From Campylobacteraceae bacterium (lineage in GTDB: Bacteria > Campylobacterota > Campylobacteria > Campylobacterales > Campylobacteraceae), in assembly GCA_031263195.1 (NCBI GenBank), contig JAISGD010000015.1:1-64000 (forward strand): 64,000 bases of DNA. The letters run 5' to 3'. Numbering within the stretch: the first letter of the stretch is position 1; each line of letters begins with the position of its first letter. The notes beneath the pieces were generated by a model, which worked only from the letters and a program-made list of their open reading frames with translations, was not told the DNA's origin and did not search any database. Positions 38,504-42,297 of this stretch are shown one piece after another. A program made the translations under genes and the position numbers.

Positions 38504-38885
38504 AAAATAGAGATAAAATTATGCCAAAAAGCTGTTTAAAATTACCAAAATTCATATTTTGGCTTTCAAAATCGGTAAAATTTAACGTTTTTTGTTCTAT
38601 CTAATGCAGGCAGTTTTATGACAAACCGAAACTCTTCACAGAAATAGCGATTTATCATTGCGATTTAGCGACTTCCTTCGATTTTCCACAGTTAAGCCAT
38701 AAGTTTTTAAAGCAGGAAAATCCGCCGCAAGAAATTAGTCGCCTTTGTCTTTTAATATCAATCTGCGCTCCAAGCAAAGACGCGTCAACCCAGAGTCAAG
38801 TTTAATATCTCTTTGTCAAAACAATATAGCATTTTCCCACTCTCAATCTCACGGCAAAATCATACGAAACAGACAAAATATAATA
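38504..38885. other. decayed sequence beside tRNA-Arg
   Basis: 382 bases without a supported gene. Broken minus-strand frames rich in stops suggest former coding DNA, but I cannot identify it. Marks the left edge of the degraded patch. Confidence 0.4.
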
Positions 38886-39859
38886 TTATTGGTTATCTAT
38901 TTTCTCCTTAAACCGATTAATCAAATCCGGTTCTTTTATCAAAGGTCTTGCTATTCCAAAATACTCAATTTTTGTACTGTTTAATATGCTTGTCATCTCT
39001 TCAAAATTCCTGTTACCGCCGGTCATAATGATTTTTGTCTCATTCTTGGCGGCTATTTGCTCCGCTTCATCCTTAAAATAGGAGGTTTGTTTTTATAATT
39101 TGTCCAATTTCCGCTGATTTCAATCGCGTCAACTTTTAACTTTGTCAATTCATTGCATAGATACAATACGTCATCAAAAGCTACCTCATCTTTAAAACCG
39201 TCGTTCACATTTATCTTTATCAATACCGGAAAATCCGCTCCCACCGACTCGCGTATAGCCCTATAAGTTTCCAGCGACATTCTTGCTCTATTTTCTGCGG
39301 AACCGCCGTACAAATCCGTTCTCCGATTATAATATGGAGTCATAAATTGACTAAGCAAAAATCCATGAGCCGCATGTATTTTAACGCCGTCATAACCGGC
39401 GTTTTTTGCTCACAAAGCGGCTTTTGAAAACTTTTCCTGTATAGCTTTTATCTGTTTTACGGTTATCTCCTGAGGCAATACTTTTGTGTTTAAATTTTCT
39501 ACCGCGCTTGGCGCGAGAATAGTCATGTCTGTTGTTTTTCCCATCACATACGATCCGACATATACTAATTGCAAAATAATGTTAGCGCCTTTTTCATGCA
39601 CTAAACTCGTTAACGCTTTATGTCCTTCGCAAAATGAATCATCATAAAATGCCATCATAGGAAAATTTTTTTCAGCCTCATCAATCAAAGTAAAACCGGT
39701 AATCAAAGCTCCGCTTCCTCCCATGGCAAGTTCTTTGTACATGTTCAAAATATTTTCGTTTACCTGTCCGTCTGATGTTTTTTCACCAATTGCGGCTCTG
39801 ATAAACCGATTTTTCAAAGACATTTGTCCTAATTGAGTCTTGTCAAATAATGTTTTCAT
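38886..39859 (-). pseudogene. old yellow enzyme (NADH:flavin oxidoreductase) pseudogene
   Basis: The ATG at 39859 has AGGAGAAAAG upstream, and the frame reads K-N-R-F-I-R-A-A-I-G-E-K, a normal OYE start. At 39410-39412 there is an in-frame TGA, after which the same frame goes on into [22 protein letters not shown], the family's H-x-x-H substrate/FMN region. Near 39080 one base is missing: restoring it gives [12 protein letters not shown] and then I-I-M-T-G-G-N-R and G-I-A-R-P-L-I-K-E-P-D, the standard C-terminus, ending at TAA 38886-38888. All landmarks are present, so inactivation looks recent. OYEs reduce activated alkenes with NAD(P)H. Confidence 0.88.
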
Positions 39860-40147
39860 TCTTTTCTCCTATAATATGTAGGGATTATTATATACCCTTC
39901 TTTTTACAAGGTGTCAAAAAACACTTTTAATTGTCAGCGTGCTGTTCAAATAACCGGCTAACTGCTCCAGAGCCGCGCAACGATGACGGAACAAATACAG
40001 ACTTAATTGTGCAAAATACACCTGTACTCTATTATCTTATTTATTATTTTTTGGTACATGTAACTTTCATGATTTATAATCTTTAGAAATATTTAATTTA
40101 TTTAATTTAATCCATTCATTGCGATGATAATTGTTATTTTGTGATTT
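39860..40147. other. spacer with a coding relic
   Basis: Minus-strand 39914-40036 is an open 40-codon stretch without start (…F-A-Q-L-S-L-Y-L-F-R-H-R-C-A-A-L-E-Q-L-A) ending in TGA. It looks like the C-terminus of a lost protein, possibly a regulator that sat upstream of the OYE gene. TATAAT-like boxes for the OYE gene are near 39875-39895. Confidence 0.4.
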
Positions 40148-40681
40148 TTAATCCATTAAATTATTTTTTTCATTAAATCTTTCTATTAATTTATTATTCG
40201 CTTCAATAAGTTTTTCAAATTTTATCATATTTGCGTTATATACAAAATCGTAATTCATATCTTTAGCCTTATATTGATTCACTCCATATGCTATACTATT
40301 AGCGGGTATATCTTTTGTTACTATCGCGCCAACTGCTACAAAAGAATTTTTACCAATTATTATTGGTCCTAATATTTTTGCCCCATCAGCAATTACTACA
40401 TTTCTACAAATTATCGGGTTGCCAATATTTTCCCATTCATTATTAATTTTATTATATTTCATATTCGTTCCAATAGTTACATTTTGACAAATCACAACAT
40501 TTTCACAAATTTTTGAAGCGATAATTATACTTCCTCGCGCATGATGAGCAAACAAAACACTTCTATCTATTTCAATACAATTAATTTCACAACAGTATAA
40601 TTTTTCCAGTAAATTTTTGGCTATATTTTTTAGTATTTTATTCTTAGAATAGCAATTTATTTTTATCAATGTATCAAACAT
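40148..40681 (-). CDS. left-handed beta-helix (hexapeptide) acyltransferase, serine O-acetyltransferase-like
   Basis: 177 residues. After a short helical start come hexapeptide repeats ([I/V]-G-x-x-x-x steps such as A-R-G-S-I-I-I-A, I-C-Q-N-V-T-I-G-T-N, I-I-C-R-N-V-V-I-A-D-G-A-K-I-L-G-P-I-I-I-G) and a closing helix. H46/H47 are the likely catalytic His pair near the C-x-x-I-D helix. The family includes CysE and sugar/antigen acetyltransferases. The N-terminal helical domain of true CysE is much shortened, so the acceptor may not be serine. Base composition is clearly more AT-rich than the housekeeping genes, and it stands in the degraded patch, which suggests acquisition. It is the only intact gene there. 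Confidence 0.75.
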   Translation of the reverse strand: MFDTLIKINCYSKNKILKNIAKNLLEKLYCCEINCIEIDRSVLFAHHARGSIIIASKICENVVICQNVTIGTNMKYNKINNEWENIGNPIICRNVVIADGAKILGPIIIGKNSFVAVGAIVTKDIPANSIAYGVNQYKAKDMNYDFVYNANMIKFEKLIEANNKLIERFNEKNNLMD

Positions 40682-40854
40682 ATCCGCAAATCCTCACTTT
40701 CAAATAACTTTTACATGGCACTGTATTATATAATTTTATTCTAAGTAGTTTCCCAATTTTTTTATTGTACTCAACTTTTTATTAGCATTTCTCTTTATTG
40801 TTGCCGCATTAATGATTTCTACCTACAAACAACTCTCTTGTTTTTTTAAACAGA

Positions 40855-41406
40855 TCATGGTGCGGACATACGGCGGTCTGTCCAGTCGATGATAAGTTAC
40901 GTTTAGCAAAAGCCATTGACCGTCCTTACGAACGATGGTATCGTAGTAACGAATACCCTTGTACCAACAACATTCGCTTGCCGCCTTCTGTCCAAAAATG
41001 GTGCGCTAAAGTATAACTCTCATTGGTCGCTTGATCGCCATTGATCCGAACCGTGCTTTGACCATTGAAGTGCATAGTCATTTCATATTGCTTCAAACCA
41101 TCGCCAATGCACGCTTCTATTTCTTTTCTACCATACAATAACCTGTACTGGTTTACTGTCTTTGTTGGATTCCGCCATATAAACTTCGATTATCGCATCA
41201 TCGGTAAACAGTGCCGCTTGAGCTGCTGTCAGTTTGCGATCGGCGTCATTCGCGTAAGCATCAAGAAGTTCACGAATAGCCAAGCGGGCAGCTTTGTTGA
41301 TGGACTTATCAGCCGACCGAACCGCAGACATGCTGCTCCAATGAAGCCAAAACAACAGAATAACGAGCGCAAAAAATACGACAGTGAGTATGATTTTATA
41401 CGCCAT
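40855..41406 (-). pseudogene. NTF2/SnoaL-like protein pseudogene with several frameshifts
   Basis: The ATG at 41406 follows AAAGGAATAG and encodes a membrane anchor (I-I-L-T-V-V-F-F-A-L-V-I-L-L-F-W) and then a SnoaL-type start (R-E-L-L-D-A-Y-A-N-D-A-D). The frame breaks near 41140. The next frame gives G-R-K-E-I-E-A-C-I-G-D-G-L-K-Q-Y and S-T-V-R-I-N-G-D-Q-A-T. It breaks again near 40958, after which a third frame reads G-I-R-Y-Y-D-T-I-V-R-K-D-G-Q-W. One or two more shifts near 40900 restore L-I-I-D-W-T-D-R-R-M-S-A-P and a TGA at 40855-40857. The order matches an intact NTF2-like fold. G+C is higher than in the flanks, suggesting foreign origin. Confidence 0.8.
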
Positions 41407-41425
41407 AATCTATTCCTTTCAACTA

Positions 41426-41738
41426 TTATTTATAATTTATTTTCTGTCCTACGGAAAAATGTATCAAACAATTTGAATAATCCTCAATAGGAAGTTGGAA
41501 AGTTATTGCCTCACCAAAAGTTCCTTTCCGCTTAGCGTACTGATATTTTTTGATCAAAGAGCTTCCTTTATGCCGTTCCAGCGACAACATGGAAAAACAT
41601 TTGATTCCAAGCTGCCTCTCATATTTTTCGAAGCTTTATTGATTGCTGATATTGTCCAATTTTTTCGATGAGCATAACCGACTCAAGAAAAAAATTACGC
41701 GTCAAATGAAAAACTTCAATAGTTTGTTCATCAGCCAT
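41426..41738 (-). pseudogene. unrecognised gene split by one frameshift
   Basis: The ATG at 41738 opens a frame (M-A-D-E-Q-T-I-E-V-F-H-L-T-R-N-F-F) that ends at a TGA near 41624. One base shift just before it continues as E-K-Y-E-R-Q-L-G-I-K, then S-L-E-R-H-K-G-S-S-L-I-K-K-Y-Q-Y-A-K and F-Q-L-P-I-E-D-Y-S-N to a TAA at 41426-41428, giving a product of about 104 residues. It ends 20 bases before the NTF2-like gene, so they were probably one operon. The family is not recognised. A 12-bp palindrome lies between its -10-like box and start. Confidence 0.55.
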
Positions 41739-42297
41739 AAAATATACTATTCTTTAAAGAACATTTTATATTATTACCTTATTAAAATTATTTATCAGGC
41801 TTTTTTTATATAATTTTTAATTTTCTTCCAAATATTTTTCAAAAAATCTCAGACAAAATTGCACATATTAAGATATTTTATATAATCGCTAAAATTGCTA
41901 TTATTGAAAGACTTATTAAACTTCATTTATTTTCTTTTACTTCTTTCGTTGAATGATTGGCTATAGTCATCTCCCGTATGTCGTAAACCTTTACAAAATT
42001 TTCATTAACAAAAATCCGATTAGTCGTTTTACCGTTCGCTATTTTCGTAGTTTCTCCCAGAATTTAATTTTGGTTATTTTACTTTATTATTTATAACCTC
42101 ATCTATTATGCTAAGCTTTTAAAATATTTCTATCGTTTTATATTTTATGAAAAAAATATCGCTCGTATTTTACAACAATTTCAATGCGAATTGCGCTAGT
42201 GATGATATTTGTACAAGTGTATTGTTTTTTGTTACATTTAGGAAGATTTTGCAACAAAACTATTAAAAACAGTTAGATTTTAGCAGATAATAAAAAA
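41739..42297. other. AT-rich spacer with a possible coding relic
   Basis: Minus-strand 41923-42063 is an open stretch of 46 codons without a start, reading G-E-T-T-K-I-A-N-G-K-T-T-N-R-I-F-V-N-E-N-F and ending in TGA. It looks like the C-terminus of a lost gene and is not recognised. The rest is A/T-rich with no signal I can name. Confidence 0.4.
41750..41761. promoter_or_regulatory. perfect 12-bp palindrome, possible operator
   Basis: TTCTTTAAAGAA lies just downstream of a minus-strand TATAAA and 11 bases before the ATG at 41738, a typical place for a repressor site. Confidence 0.4.

Follow-up and report, generated by a model that had tools for sequence, protein, structure and literature searches.

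Hotspots of horizontal gene transfer (HGT) without mobile elements have been described as variable gene content between fixed core loci, often with no recognisable integrase, and homologous recombination was reported to be elevated in the core genes on either side (Oliveira et al. 2017, PMC5635113). That such hotspots are fed by this recombination is so far supported mostly by statistical evidence. Here, a patch at positions 38,504-42,297, located between a tRNA-Arg gene and fusA, was read on both strands within a 64,000-nt stretch of DNA from a Campylobacteraceae bacterium (contig JAISGD010000015.1; the whole stretch is called the window), the genome under study being a draft assembly of 32 contigs (G000). 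The patch is an ordinary gene-turnover hotspot of the already known integrase-less HGT kind. It probably represents the decayed content of a hotspot between fusA and tRNA-Arg, with recombination in the flanking core genes as the most likely way of entry. A recombination breakpoint and decaying cargo are visible here side by side, together with an empty site and alternative fillings in relatives.

For the comparison, the locus was pulled with fusA from 40 relatives and the DNA downstream of fusA was then compared. In five genomes of outgroup genera (G016, G020, G021, G022 and G024) tRNA-Arg(CCT) follows fusA at a distance of 25-176 bp, and since these genera keep both genes side by side, this adjacency is likely to be the ancestral state. 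Within the genus, fusA and tRNA-Arg(CCT) border the interval in G000, G001, G009, G011, G012 and G013. The site is nearly empty in G001, with 77 bp between the two genes, and six same-genus genomes hold unlike DNA of 0.46 to more than 14 kb at the spot or beside fusA: 460 bp without a gene in G009, about 1.3 kb with a gene for 211 amino acids in G013, about 1.4 kb with a BOF-domain gene in G011, 3.2 kb with a pair of NYN-domain and FGE-sulfatase-like genes in G012, at least 14.8 kb up to the contig end in G004, and a cadherin-domain gene beside fusA in G006. No insert next to fusA is common to two readable genomes. The adjacency in the outgroups, the empty site in G001 and the unlike inserts in the other same-genus genomes together identify the spot as a hotspot of insertion and turnover. 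This supports the proposal of an earlier note on the window that DNA was gained and lost here more than once.

Directly beside this spot, two core genes of G000 have changed their nearest relatives. These are fusA, encoding elongation factor G (EF-G; 42334-44412, minus strand, TIGR00484), and a gene at 44480-44950 on the same strand, which we take to be rpsG. G000 was compared by identity, in steps of 600 bp, with twelve genomes of the genus. G004 was the nearest (91-96%) between 42.3 and about 45.15 kb, followed by G012 and G011, and from 45.3 to 59 kb G002 or G003 was nearest in nearly all steps, with G004 at 76-88% and G004, G012 and G011 together at 75-88%. MaxChi placed a break at 45128-45170, inside rpsL, with a z value of 15.2 for G004 versus G002 and a permutation maximum of 4.5; a similar break was found for G004 versus G001 (45167-45170, z 13.6), z was 8.2 for G004 versus G003, and other reference pairs gave breaks between 44.7 and 45.2 kb, the permutation maxima being 4.4-4.6 across tests. 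In a tree of fusA and rpsG, G000 grouped with G004 (support 97/98) and the approximately unbiased (AU) test rejected a grouping of G000 with G002 (p 2.8e-6), whereas in a tree of rpoC and rpoB G000 grouped with G002 (support 100/99) and a grouping with G004 was rejected (p 1.2e-6). The switch in the identity profile, the MaxChi break and the AU rejections indicate that fusA-rpsG was replaced by homologous recombination with a donor like G004 or G012, so that both genes lie within an imported tract directly beside the patch. The shift is common to G004, G012 and G011, which makes G000 the likely recipient of a segment from their clade. As fusA is a common phylogenetic marker and, together with rpsG, has a history in G000 unlike that of the remaining str operon, it is a misleading marker here.

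The imported tract ends at or beyond the stop codon of fusA, i.e. next to the patch. Within the patch, the head of a gene at 41866-41932 (minus strand) matches the start of an open reading frame (ORF) in the island found beside fusA in G004 (L031:9404-9841) with 83.6% identity over 67 bp and an E-value of 5e-13, the best match of the reversed control having an E-value of 2e-7, and a weaker match of 61 bp to the same island is present at 42208-42268. These observations fit, and do not prove, that DNA downstream of the donor's fusA came along with the gene and was then eroded. Neither the replacement of fusA-rpsG nor the surviving remnant of a G004-type island was visible to the earlier reading. 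Weak alignments of the acetyltransferase region of the patch to the G004 island were discarded as AT-rich noise, for which the reversed control gave similar E-values.

The borders of the interval suggest how DNA might accumulate here. On the left, tRNA-Arg (CCT) at 38427-38503 (minus strand; ARAGORN and Rfam), which is the neighbour of fusA in G001 and several outgroup genera, is preceded at its 5′ side by about 48 bp (38504-38551, minus strand) that are kept in six relatives irrespective of the DNA beyond; tRNA and flank are 92-96% identical in G005, G007, G008, G011, G012 and G013, and the flank is probably the promoter of tRNA-Arg. On the right, a terminator-like hairpin of fusA with the T-run on the minus strand was recognised by inspection at 42298-42324, its 9-nt loop exceeding the limit of the automated hairpin scan. 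Foreign DNA would repeatedly enter the gap that separates this terminator from the promoter of the tRNA; no gene or operon would be broken there, and by this position inserts would be harmless. Linear DNA from a related lineage may have brought fusA together with the donor's downstream DNA, one crossover falling in rpsL at the mapped breakpoint. Presumably not maintained by selection, the imported cargo, including genes of an old yellow enzyme (OYE) and a SnoaL-like protein, would then gain stops and frameshifts and get trimmed, while an acetyltransferase gene, whose family is under purifying selection, is still open. Competence genes of the ComEC family, present in 14 of the 14 genus genomes, are compatible with transformation.

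Several points weigh against this account. The patch is tied to the G004 island only by the 67-bp relic and the weaker 61-bp match, and conservation of the tRNA with its flank is too strong for a left boundary of the tract to be located. The accessory genes have unlike G+C contents (GC; 25-45%) and unlike nearest relatives, and several separate arrivals are therefore likely. Moreover, rearrangement is at work besides insertion, since G005 and G008 have a sulfur-metabolism cluster after the tRNA and no fusA in the sequence read. ComEC genes are common in bacteria and were also found in 10 of 14 control genomes, and hence lend weak support. A further-reaching idea, that the junction of fusA and tRNA-Arg is a recurrent landing site where swaps of fusA between species of the genus carry cargo and that selection on EF-G, e.g. 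by natural antibiotics, drives the turnover of neighbouring genes, is rather doubtful.

The content of the patch was determined by translation and by Pfam scans of its pieces after joining broken frames by X. Next to the tRNA flank lies a remnant without open frame or Pfam family match (38554-38880), for which a short by-eye resemblance to a transposase was dropped, as Pfam gave no support. It is followed on the minus strand by a pseudogene of an OYE-type NADH:flavin oxidoreductase (38889-39859; Oxidored_FMN, E 4.6e-56), whose joined pieces cover profile positions 2-341, i.e. the whole length; it is complete except for two lesions, a TGA codon in frame (complement of 39410-39412) and one frameshift close to 39074-39077. 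The intact gene of a hexapeptide acetyltransferase, resembling serine acetyltransferases, is located at 40148-40681 (minus strand; Pfam Hexapep). Upstream of it on the same strand, a SnoaL/NTF2-like pseudogene with an N-terminal hydrophobic segment (40862-41406; SnoaL_4, E 2.7e-18 after joining) is split by two frameshifts over three frames (40862-40966, 40947-41168 and 41140-41406), and an ORF without family match at 41426-41740, its end being approximate, is broken into two frames, likewise on the minus strand. A start-less coding tail of about 46 codons without family match (41923-42064, minus strand) has a stop that overlaps the start of the next gene, the head described above.

This inventory confirmed most of what the earlier note had read from the letters, namely three broken genes (OYE, NTF2-like and a third ORF), one intact acyltransferase of unlike composition, and a composition that shifts from piece to piece, the acetyltransferase having a GC of 25% and the SnoaL gene one of 45% in a window of 38%. 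Other statements had to be amended. The two or more start-less tails are the C-terminus of OYE at 38889-39077 and the tail of about 46 codons, whereas the piece at 41866-41932 is a gene head. The absence of broken genes outside the patch holds for about 55 kb by the ORF map, but the segment at 22,250-24,177 is also AT-rich and gene-poor, and the sequence after the patch extends over about 22 kb instead of 17 kb. Comparison of the interval beside fusA revealed no relative with the same arrangement intact, which is consistent with decay; intact relatives of individual patch genes exist elsewhere. As no relative with the same arrangement intact was found, individual lesions cannot be polarised.

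If the frameshifts were assembly errors, the genes would be intact, and a draft of 32 contigs invites this suspicion. At least four lesions, one nonsense mutation and at least three frameshifts, fall into about 1.8 kb of broken genes and none into the about 55 kb of other genes, for which a rough chance under uniform error is (1.8/57)^4 or about 1e-6. This clustering argues against scattered assembly error, and since one lesion is a nonsense substitution and indel errors explain neither coding tails that lack a start nor a gene head that lacks its body, we regard intact genes as hardly credible. More room is left for neutral debris at a rearrangement breakpoint that joined the DyP-gppA block to the str operon and broke genes at the join. 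Gene order on the tRNA side differs among relatives, the order of blocks to the left is widely shuffled, and another AT-rich patch lies at a block boundary at 22.3-24.2 kb. The order of fusA and tRNA-Arg is nevertheless kept in G000, the patch lying inside this conserved pair and not at the DyP join, and the OYE and SnoaL genes, without close relatives found in the genus, look foreign rather than like broken residents; such an origin is therefore unlikely.

The patch yielded no gene for an integrase or transposase, no attC site and no repeats at its flanks, which bears on two further explanations. An integrative element targeting tRNA-Arg, its integrase lost later, would account for the tRNA gene alongside, tRNA genes being classical attachment sites, and for the large islands that some relatives, among them G004, carry at this place. 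The inserts nevertheless lie 5′ of the tRNA beyond a conserved flank and not at the 3′ end that integrases usually use, the patch is not bounded by direct repeats of the tRNA end, and neither its ORFs nor those insert genes of relatives that were scanned include an integrase, so that we hold this to be quite unlikely. A decayed array of integron gene cassettes is suggested by the single orientation of OYE, acetyltransferase, SnoaL and the remnants, by an attC-like site directly 3′ of an acetyltransferase homologue on an Ignavibacteriae contig (L118:1454-1542), and by homology that is confined to the ORF, as it is for cassettes. Yet the same scan, based on a simple R-box and fold, finds no attC-like pair anywhere in the window, the integron integrase profile (TIGR02249) reaches only background in G000 (46.6 bits, cut-off 265), and the common orientation equals that of fusA, which makes a cassette array very unlikely. 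The preferred reading remains that of a hotspot between fusA and tRNA-Arg which was filled through recombination in the flanking core genes.

The patch genes point to different sources. The best relatives of the OYE gene are 57-61% identical and belong to another family of the order, with none close in the same genus. For the SnoaL gene, one distant relative (37%) was found among 249 genomes of the order, and matches on plasmids reached 46% at best. Relatives of the acetyltransferase with 71-81% amino acid identity were found in sequence records named as Treponema, Spirochaetia, Fibrobacterales, Fibrimonadaceae, Planctomycetaceae, Azobacteroides, Stenoxybacter, Bacteroidetes and Ignavibacteriae (L106, L116-L124), further relatives occur elsewhere in G012, G008 and G023, and others lie on plasmids of Leptospira interrogans with 81% DNA identity. 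Several of these taxa are termite-gut bacteria, and this suggests a common gut gene pool. A plasmid or phage origin of the patch was rejected, as no phage match was obtained and the DNA matches to the Leptospira plasmids span the acetyltransferase only. Similarity of the acetyltransferase to its homologues stops at the ORF ends. Rates of about 0.1-0.17 for nonsynonymous (dN) and about 0.65-1.4 for synonymous substitutions (dS), with dN/dS at roughly 0.1-0.2, indicate that the family is under purifying selection. Scores of 54.8 bits (cut-off 210.65, TIGR01172) and 70.2 bits (cut-off 150, NF041874) both fall below the thresholds for CysE, and by its profile matches the protein is assigned to the cysE/EpsC-like fold family, in a branch different from CysE.

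Some observations concern the surroundings of the locus. The G004 island (L031:1-16200) holds glycosyltransferases and a run of immunity-type genes with SUKH, DUF2262 and LRR domains. In G012 (L032:2186-7682) paralogous NYN/FGE-sulfatase-like pairs are located on both sides of tRNA-Arg, the far copy being partly broken, which resembles a duplication of the spot on either side of the tRNA. A defence island was considered and rejected, as the only PADLOC matches were weak ones to NYN, in G012. The attC-like site on L118 suggests that the acetyltransferase travels as an integron cassette in the Ignavibacteriae contig. Integron-integrase-like gene fragments were detected in the same genus at G012:C14:184754-185270; within the order, complete copies above the cut-off were found only in G027 and G030.

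The tRNA-side neighbours vary, with GumN-like and alr genes in G012, a GumN-like gene in G013, small membrane-type proteins in G008, G005 and G007, MFS/MarR-like genes in G001 and DyP in G000. The DyP-type peroxidase of G000 (37311-38285, minus strand) is the intact neighbour on the tRNA side and is also found beside gppA in G003 and G005; the DyP-gppA region beyond the tRNA resembles those of G003, G005 and G006 and appears to be native. An OYE gene beside DyP in G001 is not the same gene as that of the patch, being only 32% identical and nearer to a different subfamily. The sulfur-metabolism cluster beyond tRNA-Arg was read in G008 and G005 on L110 and L111; its metY-like gene adjoins the DyP region in G003 (L136) with no tRNA between, and that of G000 lies on another contig (C15). 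In the rest of the window the ORF map is nearly continuous, with two exceptions at 22,250-24,177 and 60,854-61,403. The former, with a GC down to 22%, lies between conserved blocks that are separated in most relatives and has partial similarity in G002 only. As this other AT-rich patch and the rearranged blocks on the left show, G000 tolerates such spots more generally.

Compared with known systems, the locus is like the hotspots of Oliveira et al. in that two fixed core loci bound unlike accessory content and recombination affects a flanking core gene. It differs in that species of one genus were compared and not strains of one species, and its class is set by the bordering core loci, by turnover and by flanking recombination. 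With tRNA-associated genomic islands it shares a variable region, adjacent to a tRNA gene, that can be empty or hold many genes, whereas its inserts lie upstream of the tRNA with no integrase or att repeats found. Small foreign genes in one orientation recall chromosomal integrons and attC-only relics as in Treponema (PMC3607928), and one patch gene shares ORF-only homology with a gene that is followed elsewhere by an attC-like site; unlike in those systems, no attC was found in the window and the integron integrase is at background in G000. Beyond the hotspots of Oliveira et al., one recombination breakpoint in a flanking core gene was mapped directly here.

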